35,150 nt of DNA from a virus. How positions within the stretch are numbered: position 1 is the stretch's first letter; each line of letters begins with the position of its first letter. A model generated the notes under the pieces. The model was not told the DNA's origin and did no database searches. It was given only the letters and a program-made list of their open reading frames with translations. The stretch is from positions 1 to 35,150 of IMG/VR virus record IMGVR_UViG_3300032006_000035. One strand, given 5' to 3'. The translations under genes were made by a program, and so were the position numbers. This document shows, one piece after another, positions 1 to 35,150 of the stretch.

Positions 1-444
1 GACGCAACGAACAACTACGTCGGCATCACAAACGTCAAGCTTCAGCCGGGACAGATCGCCACCCCTTATATCCCCCGCACCTACGAGGAAGAACTAACCG
101 TCTGCAAATTCTACGCCGAACTGCTGAATTATCAAACAGCCGGTTCGCAAGTCGTCGCCTTTGGCACCGCCTCTAGCACGAGCGCCGGACAGGTGAGCGT
201 CACCTATCAGGAAAAGCGGGCGGCTCCGGCTGTGACAGGCAGTGCCGCTGGCACCTTCCAGCTATCCGATTATAACGGTGGTGGCACTAACGATGCGACG
301 GGCGTGTCGTGGAATGAGCCGGGGTTAACGAACGTCCGAATGTCCGTGTCATACGGGGGTACCGCATTCACCGTCAACGATGCCATAAGAGTTAATAGAG
401 ACGGCAGTGATGCCGCCTTCATATTCATTAACGCGGAGGTATAA
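1..444 (+). CDS. Tail fibre, C-terminal part (allele A; 5' end cut by window)
   Basis: This is an open frame of 147 codons running in from the window edge, ending at TAA 442-444. Its first 42 residues are identical to the C-terminal region of the full 654-residue fibre at 32809-34773, including the segment IATPYIPRTYEEELTVCKFY, which is typical of fibre C-termini. After that the sequence diverges from the full-length copy at about half of its positions, except for islands such as SVTYQEKRAAPA, NEPGLTN and AFIFINAE. The tip should bind the host surface. The gene probably continues on the other side of the circular junction, so this is an alternative tip rather than a separate gene. Confidence 0.85.
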   Translation, partial: DATNNYVGITNVKLQPGQIATPYIPRTYEEELTVCKFYAELLNYQTAGSQVVAFGTASSTSAGQVSVTYQEKRAAPAVTGSAAGTFQLSDYNGGGTNDATGVSWNEPGLTNVRMSVSYGGTAFTVNDAIRVNRDGSDAAFIFINAEV

Positions 445-446
445 AA

Positions 447-773
447 ATGGCCGTTGAAAACGCGAAATTCACAAACGCAGATCATACTGGCTGGGATGCG
501 ACAATCGATGGCGTTGAGTGGTTTGGTGTCGTCGATGGCACACTCTGGGATGTCATAATCGAAAGCGGAGTTGAGATCGAGGCATTCACCGAAACGACAA
601 CGTGGGAGCAAGTTCGCACCCACCGGAATGTTCTTCTTTCCAAAACAGATTTCTACGCGCTGTCCGATGTCCCTATGTCATCAGAAATGACAGCCTATCG
701 GCAGGCTTTGCGCGATGTTCCGGCAAACAATGACGATCCCAATTCCATCGACTGGCCGGTATTGCCGAGTTAA
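447..773 (+). CDS. Tail-fibre assembly chaperone-like protein (allele A)
   Basis: This 108-residue protein starts 3 bp after the fibre stop with a strong ribosome site (GGAGG at 435-439). The C-terminal half has the signature of the Phage_tail_APC family: LLSKTDFYALSDVP followed by YRQALRDVP and IDWPVLPS. Family members sit directly behind fibre genes and help fold or attach them. The N-terminal 14 and the C-terminal 43 residues are almost identical to the second copy at 34776-35102, whereas the middle (residues 15-65) differs at many positions. The middle probably contacts the variable fibre tip, since both vary together (inference). Confidence 0.75.
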   Translation: MAVENAKFTNADHTGWDATIDGVEWFGVVDGTLWDVIIESGVEIEAFTETTTWEQVRTHRNVLLSKTDFYALSDVPMSSEMTAYRQALRDVPANNDDPNSIDWPVLPS

Positions 774-775
774 GA

Positions 776-970
776 ATGGATAAGGATCGCCGCACGGTGG
801 CGTCTGCCCACCATAGAATCGATGAGTTGCTGGTGGATGTCCGCGAGCATCTGGCTGTCTGTAGTGCAGAGTCCAAGTCACAGAATGCGAGGCTCAAGCG
901 GCTGGAAACGCTTGTGATTAGCAGTGGAGCAGCGTCCATCCTTTTACTCGTGTCGCTGCTGGTAAAATAA
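776..970 (+). CDS. Small C-terminally anchored membrane protein (XhlA-like topology)
   Basis: This is a 64-residue protein. Residues 10-45 form a hydrophilic, heptad-like helix and residues 46-63 a single transmembrane segment. That is the layout of haemolysin XhlA-type proteins, which accompany holins in some phages, but the similarity is only one of topology. It starts 2 bp after the chaperone stop and ends 3 bp before the next gene, so it is translated within the same late message. It could belong to the lysis set. Its first bases recur at the right end of the window. Confidence 0.6.
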   Translation: MDKDRRTVASAHHRIDELLVDVREHLAVCSAESKSQNARLKRLETLVISSGAASILLLVSLLVK

Positions 971-973
971 TGA

Positions 974-1360
974 ATGAGCGTATCCCAGTTCATAAAACTG
1001 CTGGAAACCGTTGGAATACCAGTTCTCGTGGGGGCTGTGTCCGGATATATGCTGTGGTGGATCGTCCGCTGGGTGCTGGTAAAGTTTTCAACGGACTTCA
1101 ACAGCCAGCTGGACAAGGGGCTGGCGAACATCGATGAGGAGATACGCGATACGCGGGCGGAACTGCTGGAAACAAAGCAGCTTATTATTCGCCTGATAGA
1201 CAGGGTAAGGCTGCTGGATCAATCGCTGCTTGAGCATGACGCCGTAGCGCGGACGATCTGGAAAATAGGCCCTGCGCTTGACAGGCCGAGAACAAGGGCA
1301 GAACGTCGGGATGAGCTAGAAGAAGAATTACGGAATATAGGCAAAAATGGTGATTTATGA
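974..1360 (+). CDS. Membrane-anchored coiled-coil protein, unknown
   Basis: This 128-residue protein has one hydrophobic segment at residues 13-36 (two W and a G-rich stretch), followed by a long charged helix (about 38-90) rich in E, L and R with heptad character, and an RRDELEEEL tail. No catalytic motif is visible. The position between a small anchored protein and the oxygenase, in the same module as the endolysin, is compatible with a lysis accessory or a virion membrane protein. The stop overlaps the next start (ATGA at 1357-1360), which indicates translational coupling. Confidence 0.6.
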   Translation: MSVSQFIKLLETVGIPVLVGAVSGYMLWWIVRWVLVKFSTDFNSQLDKGLANIDEEIRDTRAELLETKQLIIRLIDRVRLLDQSLLEHDAVARTIWKIGPALDRPRTRAERRDELEEELRNIGKNGDL

Positions 1361-2052
1361 TTTCTCTTGAGCATCTTATTTACCATGAGACAGGCGAGGC
1401 GGTAGGCCGCTACCACGATGAAGTGATCTGTATGCGCCCATTCGGCCCAGCTATCGGCCACTCAACGATACCACAGGACATTATCGACGCCTTTAACGCA
1501 GATATAGATGCGGGCACAGAAGGCCCTGACTGGAGCGACAAGCTGGTAGGGAAGGTGGATAAGGAACATCTGATTCCCACAGAAGTTCTGGAGCCGCACG
1601 CCAAGTATTTTACGGATGTAGCGTTGCGTTACGTGGATAACTACGCGGAGCGGCATTGCAAGCCACTGCCCGAAAACATCAAGCCAATGGTGACGATCCA
1701 GAGCGCGTGGTACGTCCAGCAGAAGGCGGCTGACTTCAATCCCGTCCACCTTCACACCAACGCAGAGCTATCGTGTGTCGGCTATCTCCAGATGCCCGAA
1801 GATATCCATAACGAGTGGGACGAGGACGACAGGGATCACTATCCGGCAGCGGGGCATATCGAATTTCTGCACGGTAGTCCTACGTTTTTGAACCGTTCGA
1901 CGTTCATGGTTCGGCCCAAGGTTGGAGATTTCTTTATTTTTCCTGCTGATCTGCCGCATACTGTGTACCCGTTCAAATCGTCCGGCGAGAGGCGCAGCTT
2001 TTCGATGAACATTATTCTCGCAGAACAGGAGATAAAAGATGGCGACGAGTAA
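1357..2052 (+). CDS. 2OG-Fe(II) oxygenase-like protein
   Basis: This 231-residue protein has the C-terminal pattern of the phage and marine-bacterial 2OG-Fe(II) oxygenases (2OG-FeII_Oxy_5 type). SAWYV is at 116-120, FNPVHLHTNAELS at 127-139, GYLQMPE at 142-148, and GDFFIFPADLPHTVYP at 190-205, followed by ERRSFSMNI at 211-219. The probable iron ligands are a His in HLH (131 or 133) and His201. Arg212 or Arg213 should hold 2-oxoglutarate. Such enzymes hydroxylate proteins or nucleotides; the substrate here is unknown. It overlaps both neighbours by a few bases, so it belongs to the late operon. The family call is fairly sure and the function is open. Confidence 0.8.
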   Translation: MISLEHLIYHETGEAVGRYHDEVICMRPFGPAIGHSTIPQDIIDAFNADIDAGTEGPDWSDKLVGKVDKEHLIPTEVLEPHAKYFTDVALRYVDNYAERHCKPLPENIKPMVTIQSAWYVQQKAADFNPVHLHTNAELSCVGYLQMPEDIHNEWDEDDRDHYPAAGHIEFLHGSPTFLNRSTFMVRPKVGDFFIFPADLPHTVYPFKSSGERRSFSMNIILAEQEIKDGDE

Positions 2053-2245
2053 GAAGAAAGGATTCCCCGGCCCGATGACGCGCGGCCAGATGGGCGCGTA
2101 TAAAGGCATCCAGAAGAAAGAATACTATCCCGGTGGACTCGACATTACCGCCGGTAACGAGATGGGGTTCCGCTCCGAAGGCTGGCGCGTAAAGCGCGGC
2201 GCTGATAAGCGCGGTACTTTTGGAATGAAGCTCCGAAAGGCGTAA
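2039..2245 (+). CDS. Small basic protein, unknown
   Basis: This is a 68-residue protein rich in Lys, Arg and Gly (KKKGFPGPMTRGQMGAYKG at the start and a KLRKA tail). The start is supported by AGGAG at 2027-2031, inside the end of the oxygenase gene. There is no membrane segment and no recognised domain. Small basic proteins of this kind in late operons often bind DNA or are minor virion parts, but nothing here proves it. Confidence 0.6.
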   Translation: MATSKKKGFPGPMTRGQMGAYKGIQKKEYYPGGLDITAGNEMGFRSEGWRVKRGADKRGTFGMKLRKA

Positions 2246-2246
2246 C

Positions 2247-2498
2247 ATGGCGACAAATCAGGAAGCCCGTCAGGCGGCGATACGGGCAGTCACATCGACT
2301 ACCGGGACTTACGATGAGGACTGGGTGGCGCTTTTCACGACACGCAGCGCACCGGCTGGGACGTACAACGAGCGCCTTCTTAGTTATATCAATACAAAGC
2401 TGTCCACCAGCCACACCAATCTGAATGACGCCATGCAAGCTCTGGCGGCAAACCAGAGCGCGGATAACTTCAGTTCGATGGGGACGTTTACGCCATGA
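2247..2498 (+). CDS. Unknown late protein, paralogue of the next gene
   Basis: This 83-residue protein begins MATNQEARQAAIRA and contains DEDWVALF, then GTYNERLLSYIN and a helical tail. The next gene repeats the same plan (TNQGARQATCRAA, DGDWLAM, GTLNERMLKYFN), so the two come from a tandem duplication. The ribosome site is AAAGG at 2236-2240. No known domain is recognised. The setting between fibre and lysis genes suggests a minor virion or tail-associated role (inference). Confidence 0.65.
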   Translation: MATNQEARQAAIRAVTSTTGTYDEDWVALFTTRSAPAGTYNERLLSYINTKLSTSHTNLNDAMQALAANQSADNFSSMGTFTP

Positions 2499-2800
2499 CA
2501 ACGAACCAAGGTGCGCGTCAAGCTACTTGCCGTGCGGCAGCGGGAAGCGCCCTTACGGTAGACGGCGACTGGCTGGCGATGTGCGATATGCACGGCATCA
2601 CCGGGACGCTCAATGAGCGGATGCTCAAATACTTCAACGGCTCTCTGGGGGCGACTTGGGATATGGCATCTTGGGATGAAGTCGCATGGGACGGCGCAGA
2701 TGGCAACCATACCAACATTAACGAGGCAGCAGCGGCCTTTGGCGAGTCCAATGGCATAACAGGCCCCGGCAGTCTGTTTTCACAGCTAGGATCGTTCTGA
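2495..2800 (+). CDS. Unknown late protein, paralogue with inserted WD motif
   Basis: This 101-residue protein is paralogous to the gene just before it and overlaps its stop (ATGA). It differs by an insertion of about 18 residues after the shared core. The insertion contains a repeated pattern, TWDMASWDEVAWDG (about residues 54-67), like the WDTATWDAATWG repeat in the tail nozzle protein at 26728-28251. The last residues (ITGPGSLFSQLGSF) resemble a short assembly tail. Function unknown. Confidence 0.65.
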   Translation: MTTNQGARQATCRAAAGSALTVDGDWLAMCDMHGITGTLNERMLKYFNGSLGATWDMASWDEVAWDGADGNHTNINEAAAAFGESNGITGPGSLFSQLGSF

Positions 2801-3021
2801 TGGCAGCAGGGAAAAAGAACTGGATCAAGGGCGCGATTAAAAAGCCGGGAGCTTTTACGGCACAGCGTGATCGCTACAACCGCACCCACAAGGGCAAGAA
2901 CCTGACGACAAACCAGTTCGCCAAAAAGGTTCTGTCTCCCAGATCAAAATTCAGTCCCAAGACAAAGCAACGTGCGCGTCTTGCTGGAACCTTACGCCGT
3001 ATGAAAGCAAACAGGAGTTAA
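2800..3021 (+). CDS. Small basic phage protein of the KKPGA type
   Basis: This 73-residue, strongly basic protein starts MAAGKKNWIKGAIKKPGAF and ends RARLAGTLRRMKANRS. Proteins with the same KNWI.GAIKKPGA opening are common, uncharacterised members of podovirus and siphovirus late regions. It starts at the last base of the previous stop codon (TGATGG), so it is probably translated by coupling. A DNA-binding or virion role is possible but unproved. Confidence 0.65.
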   Translation: MAAGKKNWIKGAIKKPGAFTAQRDRYNRTHKGKNLTTNQFAKKVLSPRSKFSPKTKQRARLAGTLRRMKANRS

Positions 3022-10628: not shown

Positions 10629-10661
10629 ATTATATACATCCCGCATACAAAGTAAACACCT
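10629..10661 (-). promoter_or_regulatory. Leftward promoter, copy 1 of the GTGTTTAC family
   Basis: On the minus strand, AGGTGTTTACT (-35 TTTACT at 10651-10656), a 16-bp spacer and TATAAT (10629-10634) are followed by a leader with AATTAAACATAGAGGCTAA. The -35 box and the leader are repeated at two other places in the early block. Confidence 0.65.
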
Positions 10662-10680
10662 AATATACCCAGGGGGTGCA

Positions 10681-12167: not shown

Positions 12168-12200
12168 ATACTAATACATTTTGTATATCGTGTAAACACC
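12168..12200 (-). promoter_or_regulatory. Leftward promoter, copy 2 of the GTGTTTAC family
   Basis: On the minus strand, AAGGTGTTTACA (-35 TTTACA at 12191-12196), a 17-bp spacer and TAGTAT (12168-12173) are followed by a leader with AAATTAAACAAAGAGGCTAA. It is weaker at -10 than the other two copies. Confidence 0.55.
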
Positions 12201-12228
12201 TTATATACACTTTATGTATCCGCACCAT

Positions 12229-13702: not shown

Positions 13703-13745
13703 ATTCTACACATTCTACCCACTGTGTAAACACCTAGTGTATACA
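13703..13745 (-). promoter_or_regulatory. Leftward promoter, copy 3, with a palindromic site
   Basis: On the minus strand, AGGTGTTTACA (-35 TTTACA at 13725-13730), a 16-bp spacer and TAGAAT (13703-13708) make the best of the three early promoters. The -35 box is one arm of a near-perfect 21-bp palindrome (13725-13745): TGTAAACAC, CTA, GTGTATACA. The site also lies 50 bp before the rightward gene at 13796, so one protein could control both directions. Confidence 0.65.
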
Positions 13746-15413: not shown

Positions 15414-15842
15414 ATGGCCGAAGAACAAAAAGGCGTTCTTAATCAACACGGCGTGGGACGCCCCGCGCACAAGCCTACTGAGACAACCCGCAAAATGGTG
15501 ACGAGCGCCATCGGTATGGGGCTGGATCAAACGGCCATCGGTGCGCTGCTGGATATAACCCCGAAGACGCTGCGTAAGTTTTACCGCCATGAATTAGACA
15601 CCGGCGCGGCCAAGGCTAATTTCAGTGTGGCGAAAAGCCTGTACGACAGAGCCAGCGGCGGCAAGGATACAGTCGCCAGCATCTTCTGGCTGAAGGCACG
15701 GGCTGGCTGGCAGGACACTACGAAAACAGTTCACGAAGGCCTGCCTGAGCAGATTACGGTATCGTTTGCCCTAGAGCCACCTAAAGTAGAACATCAAGTT
15801 ATTGATGTAACCCCCGAAAAACAAATAGAAAATGCAGACTGA
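15414..15842 (+). CDS. Terminase small subunit-like protein
   Basis: In this 142-residue protein, residues 14-60 (VGRPAHKPTETTRKMVTSAI, LDQTAIGALLDITPKTLRKFY) form a helix-turn-helix of the kind used to recognise the packaging site. The following FSVAKSLYDRASGGKDTVASIFWLKARAGWQD is characteristic of this TerS-like family. The acidic C-terminus may contact TerL. The gene lies at the head of the packaging operon next to the non-coding region. Confidence 0.72.
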   Translation: MAEEQKGVLNQHGVGRPAHKPTETTRKMVTSAIGMGLDQTAIGALLDITPKTLRKFYRHELDTGAAKANFSVAKSLYDRASGGKDTVASIFWLKARAGWQDTTKTVHEGLPEQITVSFALEPPKVEHQVIDVTPEKQIENAD

Positions 15843-17190
15843 CACCGTAGGTATTAGCAGCGTTGTACCCTATGCGCGGAACCCGCGCCGGAATGAGGCC
15901 GCTGTAGCCAAGGTAGCCGCGTCCTTGCAGGAGTTTGGGTGGCGTCAACCAATTGTGGTGGACGAGGATATGGTTGTGGTCGCTGGGCATACGCGGCTGG
16001 AAGCTGCCCGTACTCTGAATATGGAAGAGGTGCCGATACATATTGCGCGTGGCCTGACACCCGAACAGATTAAAGCCTACCGGCTGGCGGACAACCGCGT
16101 GGGGCAAGAGGCCGAATGGGACGAAGAGTTGCTACGGCTGGAGCTTGGCGAGCTTGCAGCGGCGAGCTTTGCACTTGATTTGACAGGGTTCGACACTCAG
16201 GAGTGGGAATCTATTTTATTGGATGCGGTTGGCCCGGAATCTGATACTGATGAGAAAAAAGGCAAGTTATCAGAGAAATTTTTGGTCCCCCCGTTCAGCG
16301 TCTTGAACGCCCGTGAGGGCTGGTGGCAAGCCAGAAAGAGCGCTTGGATTGGGCTGGGCATACAGAGCGAGTTGGGGCGCGGAGGAAAGGGTTATGCCGA
16401 GGCGATAGCTAACACATGGATACAGCGGGGGGGCAAAGGGGGGGAAACAGGAACCAGCGTTTTTGATCCAGTGTTGTGTGAGTTGGTTTACCGATGGTTC
16501 AGTCCGCCAGAAGGAATTGTGCTTGATCCGTTCGCAGGCGGCAGCGTGCGTGGGATTGTAGCCTCTGTTTTGGGGCGCGAATATGTGGGTTACGATTTGC
16601 GCCCGGAACAAGTTGCGGCCAATGGTGAGCAGGCGGTGTCGATATGTGATTCCCGACAGCCGCAGTGGGTAGTTGCTGACAGCCGTACTATCGACAAGTC
16701 TGATGTCGAGGCTGATTTCCTGTTTAGCTGTCCGCCGTATGCAGATTTAGAAATCTATAGCGACGACTCGCGGGATTTGTCGACGCTGCCCTATTCAGAG
16801 TTTCGGGATAGCTATCGGGAAATTATCGCCAAGTCCTGTGCAAAATTGAAGGATGATCGCTTCGCTTGCTTCGTCGTCGGTGAGGTGCGGGACAAAGCAG
16901 GGAGGTATTACAATTTCGTTGGCGATACTATCAGTGCATTTATGGATGCAGGAATGAGTTATTACAACGAAATGATTTTGGTGACAGCCGTCGGCTCGCT
17001 TCCCATTCGGGCTGGCCGATACTTTTCGGTGAGCCGTAAAATAGGGAAAACCCACCAGAACGTGTTGATTTTCGTCAAGGGTGACTTTAAGGCAGCAGTG
17101 AAAGCCGCTGGAGAAATCACAATAGACGAGGAAATGCTGGAACCCGATGGAAATACAGATACCGTACACGCCACGCCCCCAGCAGCTTGA
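15832..17190 (+). CDS. ParB-like domain fused to a DNA methyltransferase
   Basis: This is a 452-residue protein. Residues 5-130 carry a ParB/Srx-type domain (ARNPRRNEAAVAKVAASL, AGHTRLEAA at 51-59, AYRLADNRVGQ). Residues 205-430 carry an amino-methyltransferase domain with the SAM motif LDPFAGGSVRG (231-241) and the catalytic CPPY (300-303). The product would be N6-adenine or N4-cytosine methylation; the target is unknown. It overlaps TerS (11 bp) and TerL (44 bp). Fusions of this kind are known in phages. The role could be protection against host restriction or marking DNA for packaging (inference). Confidence 0.82.
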   Translation: MQTDTVGISSVVPYARNPRRNEAAVAKVAASLQEFGWRQPIVVDEDMVVVAGHTRLEAARTLNMEEVPIHIARGLTPEQIKAYRLADNRVGQEAEWDEELLRLELGELAAASFALDLTGFDTQEWESILLDAVGPESDTDEKKGKLSEKFLVPPFSVLNAREGWWQARKSAWIGLGIQSELGRGGKGYAEAIANTWIQRGGKGGETGTSVFDPVLCELVYRWFSPPEGIVLDPFAGGSVRGIVASVLGREYVGYDLRPEQVAANGEQAVSICDSRQPQWVVADSRTIDKSDVEADFLFSCPPYADLEIYSDDSRDLSTLPYSEFRDSYREIIAKSCAKLKDDRFACFVVGEVRDKAGRYYNFVGDTISAFMDAGMSYYNEMILVTAVGSLPIRAGRYFSVSRKIGKTHQNVLIFVKGDFKAAVKAAGEITIDEEMLEPDGNTDTVHATPPAA

Positions 17191-32808: not shown

Positions 32809-34773
32809 ATGCCTTGGAGTGGTGGAGCTTTTACAAGAACGAACGGTGTTCATACGGGTGCCACCCTCTGGGCGCAGGATCGTGACGCTGGAACAAAGAT
32901 ACTGGCGACAAGGCACGATACCCATGATCAGGACTTGGCCGATGGCATTAACTCCACGCTCGAAAAGAGCGGGAGCAACGCCGCTACGGGCAATCTGAAC
33001 ATTGGCAGCAATCGCCTGACGGCGGTGGCAGACGGCACGGCCAAGACAGACGCTGCTACCGTCAACCAGATTCAGAGCAACGCCCCGGCCTTCCAAGCAA
33101 CGGATACGGGCACCGCCAATGCTTATGTCGTCGCACTGTCTCCGGCGGTGACGGCCTATGCGGCGGGGCAGGCGTTTACGTTCAAGGCTGGTGCGGCCAG
33201 CACCACGGCATCGACGCTGAACGTCAACGGGCTTGGTACCAAGGCGATCAAAAAGCTGCACGATCAGGACATTGCATCCGGCGATATCGAAAGCGGCTCC
33301 ATTGTCACGGTGGTTTACGACGGCACCAACTTCCAGATGACGAGCCAACTGGCTACAACCGCATCGTCTGGCGCACCATCAGCCTCTACATCGGCTAAAA
33401 CATCAGCCTACACAGTCGTTGCGGGGGATGATGCCTCAACCGTTCTATGCTCTGCGGCCTCCGCAGATTACGAAGTGGCGCTTACGGCGGCTGCTACGCT
33501 GGGGGATGGATTTACCGTCACAATCAAAAAATCAGACGCCACGAGATTTATGATCACCATCAACCCGAATAGCACCGAGACAATCGATGGGTTGCCTGAT
33601 CTGAAGCTCCGTAACGAGCATTCGGAAGTGACGTTAATCTGCGACGGATCGAACTGGCACATTATCAGCCATGAGAACGTGGCTTACGAATATAATGCCA
33701 TCGACAACAGTAACTTTCAGGTGGATCAATATTCTCAATCCGTCACGCGAACGGCGTTAGGCTCCGGCTCGTCGCTAACAGTACAGGATCGTTGGAAGAT
33801 CGCGATGTCTGGCAGTCCATCGGCGCGGTTTACATATTCTGTTGAAACTGGCGGTGGAGTGGATGGACGCCAGAAATGGGCGAAGCTCCTGTGTACAACG
33901 GCCAACGCCAGCCCCGACTCAAACGATCAGCTTATGATTCGACACAATATAACCGGGAATAATCTAGTCGGCGCTGGATTTCTTGGCACCGATAAGTTCG
34001 TAGAGAATATGATAATCAGCTTCGACATTATCGTTCATCTCGACGGCGGAAGTTCAGAGTCGTTTCCCGTCAAGATGGGTGTCAACTGTTTCACTGGGGA
34101 TAGCACAAGCCGGGAGTACGTCAACGATGTTTCGGTGGCAGCGGCTGACACATGGGAGCGCGTGTCGATTGTCATTCCTCAAGACACCGCCGCGAACTGG
34201 TCGGCGGGTACGAGTGCAACGCTGTATTTTAATTGGAACCTTACCGCTGGTTCTGGCTCTGTCGGGACAGCGAATACTTGGGCAAACACCTCGTACACTG
34301 ATTACATCACTTCTGCGTCTTCGAATTTCGCAGACGCAACGAACAACTACGTCGGCATCACAAACGTCAAGCTTCAGCCGGGACAGATCGCCACCCCTTA
34401 TATCCCCCGCACCTACGAGGAAGAACTAACCGTCTGCAAATTCTACGCCGAACTGCTGACGTATCAGACGGCTGGTTCGCAGGTGGTTGGATTCGGGCCG
34501 TTTAGCGGCACTGACGCCGCTCAAACCAGCGTTACATATCAGGAAAAAAGAGCAGCCCCGGCCATCACATCGTCGGTAGCGGGTACGTTTGAATTAGCGG
34601 CTTACGGCGTGGGAGCGCACGATGCGACAATTTTGCAGTACAACGAGCCGGGGTTAACGAATTTCAGATTTACAGCAAAATACGGGGGAACTGGATTCAC
34701 ACAGGATGACGCTGGGCAGATTAGACGGGACAGTAGTGATACCGCATTCATATTCATCAACGCGGAGATATAG
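32809..34773 (+). CDS. Tail fibre (allele B, full length)
   Basis: This is a 654-residue protein. The N-terminal 60 residues (MPWSGGAFTRTNGVHTGATL, DLADGINSTLEKSG) resemble the attachment domain of podovirus fibres. Middle repeats rich in Ala, Thr and Gly (FTFKAGAASTTASTLNVNGL) suggest a trimeric shaft, followed by a jelly-roll-like region. The end has IATPYIPRTYEEELTVCKFY and the variable tip. The ribosome site is AAGGAG. It recognises the host. The last 105 residues differ from allele A at 1-444, while the 42 codons before them are identical. Confidence 0.82.
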   Translation: MPWSGGAFTRTNGVHTGATLWAQDRDAGTKILATRHDTHDQDLADGINSTLEKSGSNAATGNLNIGSNRLTAVADGTAKTDAATVNQIQSNAPAFQATDTGTANAYVVALSPAVTAYAAGQAFTFKAGAASTTASTLNVNGLGTKAIKKLHDQDIASGDIESGSIVTVVYDGTNFQMTSQLATTASSGAPSASTSAKTSAYTVVAGDDASTVLCSAASADYEVALTAAATLGDGFTVTIKKSDATRFMITINPNSTETIDGLPDLKLRNEHSEVTLICDGSNWHIISHENVAYEYNAIDNSNFQVDQYSQSVTRTALGSGSSLTVQDRWKIAMSGSPSARFTYSVETGGGVDGRQKWAKLLCTTANASPDSNDQLMIRHNITGNNLVGAGFLGTDKFVENMIISFDIIVHLDGGSSESFPVKMGVNCFTGDSTSREYVNDVSVAAADTWERVSIVIPQDTAANWSAGTSATLYFNWNLTAGSGSVGTANTWANTSYTDYITSASSNFADATNNYVGITNVKLQPGQIATPYIPRTYEEELTVCKFYAELLTYQTAGSQVVGFGPFSGTDAAQTSVTYQEKRAAPAITSSVAGTFELAAYGVGAHDATILQYNEPGLTNFRFTAKYGGTGFTQDDAGQIRRDSSDTAFIFINAEI

Positions 34774-34775
34774 AG

Positions 34776-35102
34776 ATGGCCGTTGAAAACGCGAAATTTA
34801 CAAATGCGGATCACACCGACTGGGACGCGGTGATCGATGGCGTCCGCTGGGGAGGAACCGTCAATGGCACATTCTGGGATGTCATCGTAGAAAGCGGCGT
34901 CGATGTTGAGGCATTTACGGAAACGACGACATGGGCAGAGGTTCGCGCTGAACGGGATAGACGCCTCGCAAAAACAGATTTCTACGCGCTGTCAGATGTC
35001 CCTATGTCATCAGAAATGACAGCTTATCGGCAGGCTTTGCGCGATGTTCCGGCAAACAATGACGATCCCAATTCCATCGACTGGCCGGTATTGCCGAGTT
35101 AA
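34776..35102 (+). CDS. Tail-fibre assembly chaperone-like protein (allele B)
   Basis: This 108-residue homologue of the protein at 447-773 is of the same length and has the same ends. The changes fall in residues 15-65 (for example DGVRWGGTVNGTFWDVIVES instead of DGVEWFGVVDGTLWDVIIES). The TDFYALSDVP...YRQALRDVP signature is kept. GGAG stands before the ATG. Its divergence matches that of the fibre tip in front of it, which suggests each chaperone serves its own tip. Confidence 0.75.
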   Translation: MAVENAKFTNADHTDWDAVIDGVRWGGTVNGTFWDVIVESGVDVEAFTETTTWAEVRAERDRRLAKTDFYALSDVPMSSEMTAYRQALRDVPANNDDPNSIDWPVLPS

Positions 35103-35104
35103 GA

Positions 35105-35150
35105 ATGGATAAGGATCGCCGCACGGTGGCGTCTGCCCACCATAGAATCG
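35105..35150 (+). CDS. Start of the small anchored membrane protein (cut by window)
   Basis: The 15 codons MDKDRRTVASAHHRI and one extra base are identical to the start of the gene at 776-970. The rest lies beyond the window edge. If the map is circular, this is the same gene. Confidence 0.8.
   Translation, partial: MDKDRRTVASAHHRI

Follow-up and report, generated by a model that had tools for sequence, protein, structure and literature searches.

A tail fibre and a two-domain chaperone at both ends of the window

The window analysed here, i.e., the whole stretch of 35,150 nucleotides (positions 1 to 35,150 of IMG/VR virus record IMGVR_UViG_3300032006_000035), ends on a tail fibre gene and, directly downstream of it, a small chaperone gene that starts 2 nt past the fibre stop codon (Table 1). 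Self-alignment places direct copies of the end of this gene pair in two arms, arm A (positions 1-821) and arm B (34333-35150), which form the two ends of one contig; a search of the window's own record returned these two sites and no further copy. Arm A opens in the middle of the fibre gene and continues with the chaperone and then with small genes. A 2OG-Fe(II) oxygenase-like gene (1357-2052) is situated a short distance downstream of the chaperone. Elsewhere in the window, a 21-nt near-palindrome (GTGTAAACACCT..TATACAC) occurs three times with a spacing of about 1.5 kb (10650-10670, 12190-12210 and 13724-13744), possibly as an operator or promoter, and an ORF at 15832-17190 has family matches to both a ParB-like nuclease and a DNA methyltransferase and is likely a fusion of the two.

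Table 1. Features of the tip/chaperone locus in the window.
Feature	Position	Strand	Basis and remarks
Tail fibre gene, arm B allele, 654 aa	32809..34773	+	phrog_4492 'tail fiber protein', E 2.5e-12
Conserved N-terminal fibre stem, residues ~1-183	32809..33357	+	Stem scan; nucleotide homology of relatives ends there
Predicted beta-sandwich domain, residues 328-524	33790..34380	+	Structure model; resembles CBM4/22/61
Predicted connector helix, residues 536-543, before variable tip	34414..34437	+	Structure model
Terminal beta domain (tip)	34447..34770	+	Model residues 547-651; variable from 34460 (residue 551)
Fibre C-terminus, arm A allele, 147 residues	1..444	+	Arm alignment; 5' end cut by contig end
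Left flank, arm B	34333..34459		Identical to window 1-127; length probably assembler overlap
Right flank, arm B	35025..35150		Identical to window 696-821, 126 nt
Divergent block, arm B	34460..35024	+	Arm alignment
Divergent block, arm A	128..695	+	Arm alignment
Chaperone N domain, arm B, residues 1-51	34776..34928	+	Predicted three strands and helix; co-varies with tip
Chaperone C domain, arm B, residues 52-108 and stop codon	34929..35102	+	PF16778, E 1.3e-18; predicted three helices; stays with backbone
Chaperone, arm A allele, 108 aa	447..773	+	PF16778, E 1.5e-16

The last 360 residues of the fibre were modelled with a mean pLDDT of 74.8. The beta-sandwich of this model resembles carbohydrate-binding modules of families CBM4/22/61 (Foldseek E 5.6e-6 to 1e-3, at low TM-scores), and the tip variation starts at the edge of the terminal domain. 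No credible match was found for the tip among PDB sequences; 7aih reached a low E-value but offered no stretch passing alone. The chaperone model has a mean pLDDT of 89.3 and consists of two parts: residues 3-40 form three strands (3-28) and a helix (34-40), followed by a linker and the C-domain helices 53-65, 68-72 and 79-89. PF16778 (Phage_tail_APC) matches residues 53-107 with 67.0 and 60.4 bits against a gathering cut-off of 26.6 bits. Of the matches listed by Foldseek and VIA-align, 2kz6 is the best and aligns with the C domain (Z 5.9 over 59 residues); it is a sequence match as well. Mu Tfa and Pam3 gp25 are not among the listed matches, and for the N part alone the best Z among them is 3.1.

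Between an identical left flank of 127 nt and an identical right flank of 126 nt, the arms enclose a divergent block of around 565 bases, comprising the last fibre domain, the N-terminal domain of the PF16778 chaperone and the first helix of its C domain. The preliminary description of this block, which gave coordinates for arm B only and did not place the arms at the two contig ends, was confirmed upon realignment: mismatches in arm B again run from 34460 to 35024, the variable end of the fibre is 105 (arm A) or 104 (arm B) residues long, and both chaperones are 108 aa long with identical residues 1-14 and 66-108. Many of the changes had been called synonymous, and rates computed along the alignment agree. 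The tip, counted from residue 43 of the 147 fibre residues in arm A, has a pS of 0.79 and a pN of 0.23; the corresponding values are 0.54 and 0.125 for chaperone residues 1-51, 0.69 and 0.31 for residues 52-66, and 0.07 and 0 for residues 67-108. Synonymous change is thus near-saturated, in support of the earlier proposal that the arms have long been apart or are of foreign origin. Such heavy synonymous change, with every type of base change present between the arms, indicates an old divergence under purifying selection, with the arms united by recombination, rather than local hypermutation.

Coupling of tip and chaperone across related loci

A scan with the fibre stem that ignored the tip yielded 189 relatives, 80 of which were kept; the stem is common to these 80, and their tips and next genes are diverse. 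In two loci the chaperone is shrunk to an N-type domain (L031:6943-7095, 51 residues; L036:6827-6988, 54 residues), and in L036 the next gene after the reduced chaperone is a homologue of window gene 776-970. A different small protein (88-107 aa) is found after another fibre-tip class in L117 (4537-4803), L024 (2075-2353) and L044; that of L117 has no PF16778 match. Most of the loci L052-L082 carry a short stem fibre and then a separate gene of 240-320 aa, not a long fibre and chaperone, and several of these separate genes appear lectin-like by eye.

For the coupling analysis, 89 loci were tabulated: 80 of at least 585 relatives, supplemented manually with both window arms and seven further loci (L029, L047, L050, L090, L014, L015 and L017) but not with L011, L016 or L018. 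Fifteen of them were dropped (no upstream ORF, cut ends or, in a manual removal of L189, a miscalled start), leaving 74 loci, 58 of which are non-redundant. The chaperone start of L030 was reset by hand, and L028, L031 and L035-L037 stood outside the Mantel set. Three segments were compared, namely the last 70 fibre residues (T), the chaperone without the final 57 residues (N) and the last 48 chaperone residues (C). Across the 58 non-redundant loci, the Mantel correlation between T and N is 0.838, and 0.799 given C (both permutation p 2e-4). Between T and C it is 0.425, and 0.018 given N (p 0.38); note that most loci were found via the C domain, which narrows the range of C and may lower its correlations. 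Removing a 16-member MSEY cluster gives 0.798 for T-N, 0.783 for T-N given C, 0.248 for T-C and 0.000 for T-C given N. Tip type does predict the type of chaperone N domain in related loci (r of 0.84 across the 58), as anticipated. The chaperone had been described as varying with the tip as a unit; this applies to the N domain but not to the C-terminal PF16778 domain, which does not follow the tip.

Neighbouring segments always correlate, and a tip swapped by homologous recombination could simply carry along the linked N half of the chaperone as a hitch-hiker, without any molecular matching. Yet, in the 44 of the 58 loci that have all blocks, the fibre's final 50 aa and the chaperone's initial 38 aa, on either side of the gene boundary, correlate at 0.79, compared to 0.47 inside the chaperone gene, where N and C touch; this is not predicted by physical linkage alone. 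For pairs that are not both in the MSEY cluster, the values are 0.59 across the boundary and 0.23 inside the chaperone. A shared tip (T of at least 0.3) also argues against mere hitch-hiking, as it comes with a shared N domain in 107 of 109 pairs, the exceptions being L120-L029 and L124-L167. Among pairs with a C of at least 0.7 and an N below 0.3, the tip is shared in none of 138.

The earlier claim that each chaperone is matched to its tip stands at the level of classes, where those 107 pairs support it and no case of free combination of tip and chaperone was found, and is not supported at the level of close alleles. Among the four closest alleles (A, B, L003 and L004), the informative tip sites favour the grouping of A with L003 and of B with L004 by 26:4:3. 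The N domain does not mirror this grouping (5:7:0 over chaperone residues 1-47), a mismatch that hitch-hiking would accommodate; residues 48-66 give 12:0:0. Nor does each tip have a chaperone of its own: the N domain is shared at a tip similarity below 0.3 in 62 pairs, such that a single N class accommodates widely differing tips, as hitch-hiking would also allow. Tip pairs below 0.2 even occur inside four of the ten multi-member N clusters, in which some upstream ORFs may be non-fibre. Conversely, L117 and L119 have related tips (0.31) yet different partner genes. Given the four-allele mismatch, the 62 pairs and these exceptions (L120-L029, L124-L167 and L117/L119), the compared sequences indicate a coupling of class to class, in which one chaperone type serves a family of variable tips.

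The positions at which relatives lose and regain homology with the window bear on how the two segments move. Nucleotide homology stops at 33347-33357 in L033, L034, L036 and L047, and at 33695-33707 in L030 and L031. In L034, it stops at 33357 and returns at 34929, i.e., at chaperone codon 52, the exact boundary between the N and C domains; it returns at 34965 in L033, 34972 in L030 and 35016 in L031, with the proviso that BLAST places such ends only approximately and that similarity at the protein level persists through parts of the junction gaps. The downstream gene of L033 and L034 is the same as that of the window (94% and 88%). These breaks and returns in L030, L031, L033 and L034 indicate a replacement of the distal fibre together with the N domain of the chaperone in the window lineage, with the C domain retained. 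The converse is observed in L028, the last 54 tip residues of which are B-like (score of 209 versus 153 for A): an N domain of the window type is placed on an unrelated C domain (phrog_9114/1787, no PF16778 match), which we read as a natural domain swap. Both the position of the L034 junction at the domain boundary and the pairing of tip and N with another C domain in L028 speak against hitch-hiking only, which we consider unlikely as the full explanation.

A probable circular map that enters in one allele and leaves in another

Two contigs from other metagenomes cross the join between the window's ends. In IMGVR_UViG_3300008218_000664 (L029/L004), the fibre, tip, chaperone and window positions 822-2508 are found in one run, and in IMGVR_UViG_3300009605_001339 (L038/L005) the run extends over window positions 822-3014, both at ~91-93% and each with a single copy of the locus at the join. 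As relatives cross the join with one copy, the arms appear to be two alleles of one locus, and the window to be a map of ~34.3 kb, circular or circularly permuted, followed once around from allele A into allele B. Because both are in one contig, A and B were presumably present in the same sample. The record is classed as linear, which fits its ends being different alleles. A polymorphic fibre tip can thus hide the circularity of a complete circular phage genome.

The lengths of the flanks, 127 and 126 nt, probably reflect the k-mer overlap of the assembler around a bubble. We take this assembly to have used k = 127, at which an unresolved bubble in a de Bruijn assembler leaves flanks of 127/126 nt; the value was not found in the text that mentions metaSPAdes with default parameters. 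With the arms as ends of one contig from a circular map, neither identical flank can exceed the assembly overlap. Since their length was probably set by the assembler, the flanks are uninformative on a biological boundary.

A linear genome bearing both arms as divergent terminal repeats would account for the record as given, with an arm at each end. However, arm A lacks a start, opening within the fibre, the fibre, chaperone and window positions from 822 onward are continuous in relatives, and the flanks look like an assembly overlap. A true terminal duplication is therefore rejected on the single copy with which L029 and L038 cross the join, and we regard it as very improbable.

Phage Mu switches fibre/chaperone pairs via an invertible segment, in a layout of two fibre-tip versions with a partner gene between identical flanks. 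The arms match this layout, but programmed switching within one lineage, by invertible or cassette phase variation or by a diversity-generating retroelement, is the least probable origin of the two arms, as they are direct and not inverted, show heavy synonymous divergence with changes between all bases, and are represented by one copy at the join in relatives. A family search of the window, the record of which may lack parts, gave no match to RVT_1 (reverse transcriptase), Resolvase or Phage_integrase (tyrosine integrase). An invertible or recombinase-driven fibre switch was rejected on the direct arms and the lack of Resolvase and Phage_integrase matches, and a diversity-generating retroelement on the lack of an RVT_1 match in this possibly partial record.

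A probable fibre-tip cassette with a boundary inside the chaperone gene

Taken together, we consider it likely that the window is a circular map with a hypervariable tip/chaperone locus, where a cassette of distal fibre and chaperone N domain is exchanged and tip and chaperone are coupled at the level of classes. The locus encodes the fibre's terminal beta domain and, next to it, a PF16778 chaperone built of two domains. By analogy to Pam3 gp25 and Mu Tfa, the N domain may bind the tip and help to fold or align it, while the helical C domain would have a tip-independent role, probably the trimerisation of the chaperone. With a tip-specific N domain and a general C domain, the distal fibre and the N domain would be exchanged as one cassette. 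The comparison of relatives indicates that recombination swaps them in this way, with the right crossover in or near the inter-domain junction, such that the C domain remains with the backbone.

A more specific reading is put forward tentatively. The PF16778 chaperone gene may be split between two units, its N domain belonging to the host-recognition cassette and its C domain acting both as part of the backbone and as a homology anchor for crossover, in which case ~50 residues of the chaperone could predict the tip class of an uncultured phage. If the cassette account given above is right, a tip that moves between phages would need only the chaperone N domain alongside, and the N domain could serve to sort fibre tips in metagenomes.

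The principle of a modular fibre chaperone has already been published for Mu Tfa and Pam3 gp25, and the present case concerns another chaperone family. A non-exhaustive literature search found no report of PF16778 as a modular, tip-coupled chaperone. New here are the PF16778 family, the comparative test on 58 non-redundant loci and the exchange junction within a chaperone gene.

According to PMC9608196, Pam3 gp25, which acts on the fibre gp24, binds the distal fibre through a variable N-terminal beta domain and trimerises through a conserved helical C-terminal domain. Mu Tfa is described there as a modular chaperone of two domains, of which the N domain binds the fibre and is not conserved. 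The window's chaperone likewise has a variable N domain and a conserved C domain, the arrangement of modular fibre chaperones of the Tfa/gp25 type, and by this analogy would fit their scheme of a tip-specific N domain and a general C domain. Like gp25, it is a small, presumably fibre-acting chaperone, with a C domain predicted to be helical; unlike it, it belongs to PF16778 and counts 108 aa, whereas gp25 counts 162 aa and has a beta-sandwich as N domain (PMC9608196), and no sequence or fold link between the two was found among the listed matches. With Tfa it shares the two-domain modular build and the non-conserved N domain, fibre-binding in Tfa (PMC9608196); Tfa differs in being of another family by name, and no invertible segment was found in the window. 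A further likeness is offered by the Alteromonas phages A5, V22 and P24, in which, according to PMC10579305, a tail fibre and its cognate chaperone travel together and are shared across families of unrelated phages. There, the whole module is shared and the fibres of A5 are independent of the chaperone (PMC10579305), whereas the exchange boundary in the window lies inside the chaperone gene itself.
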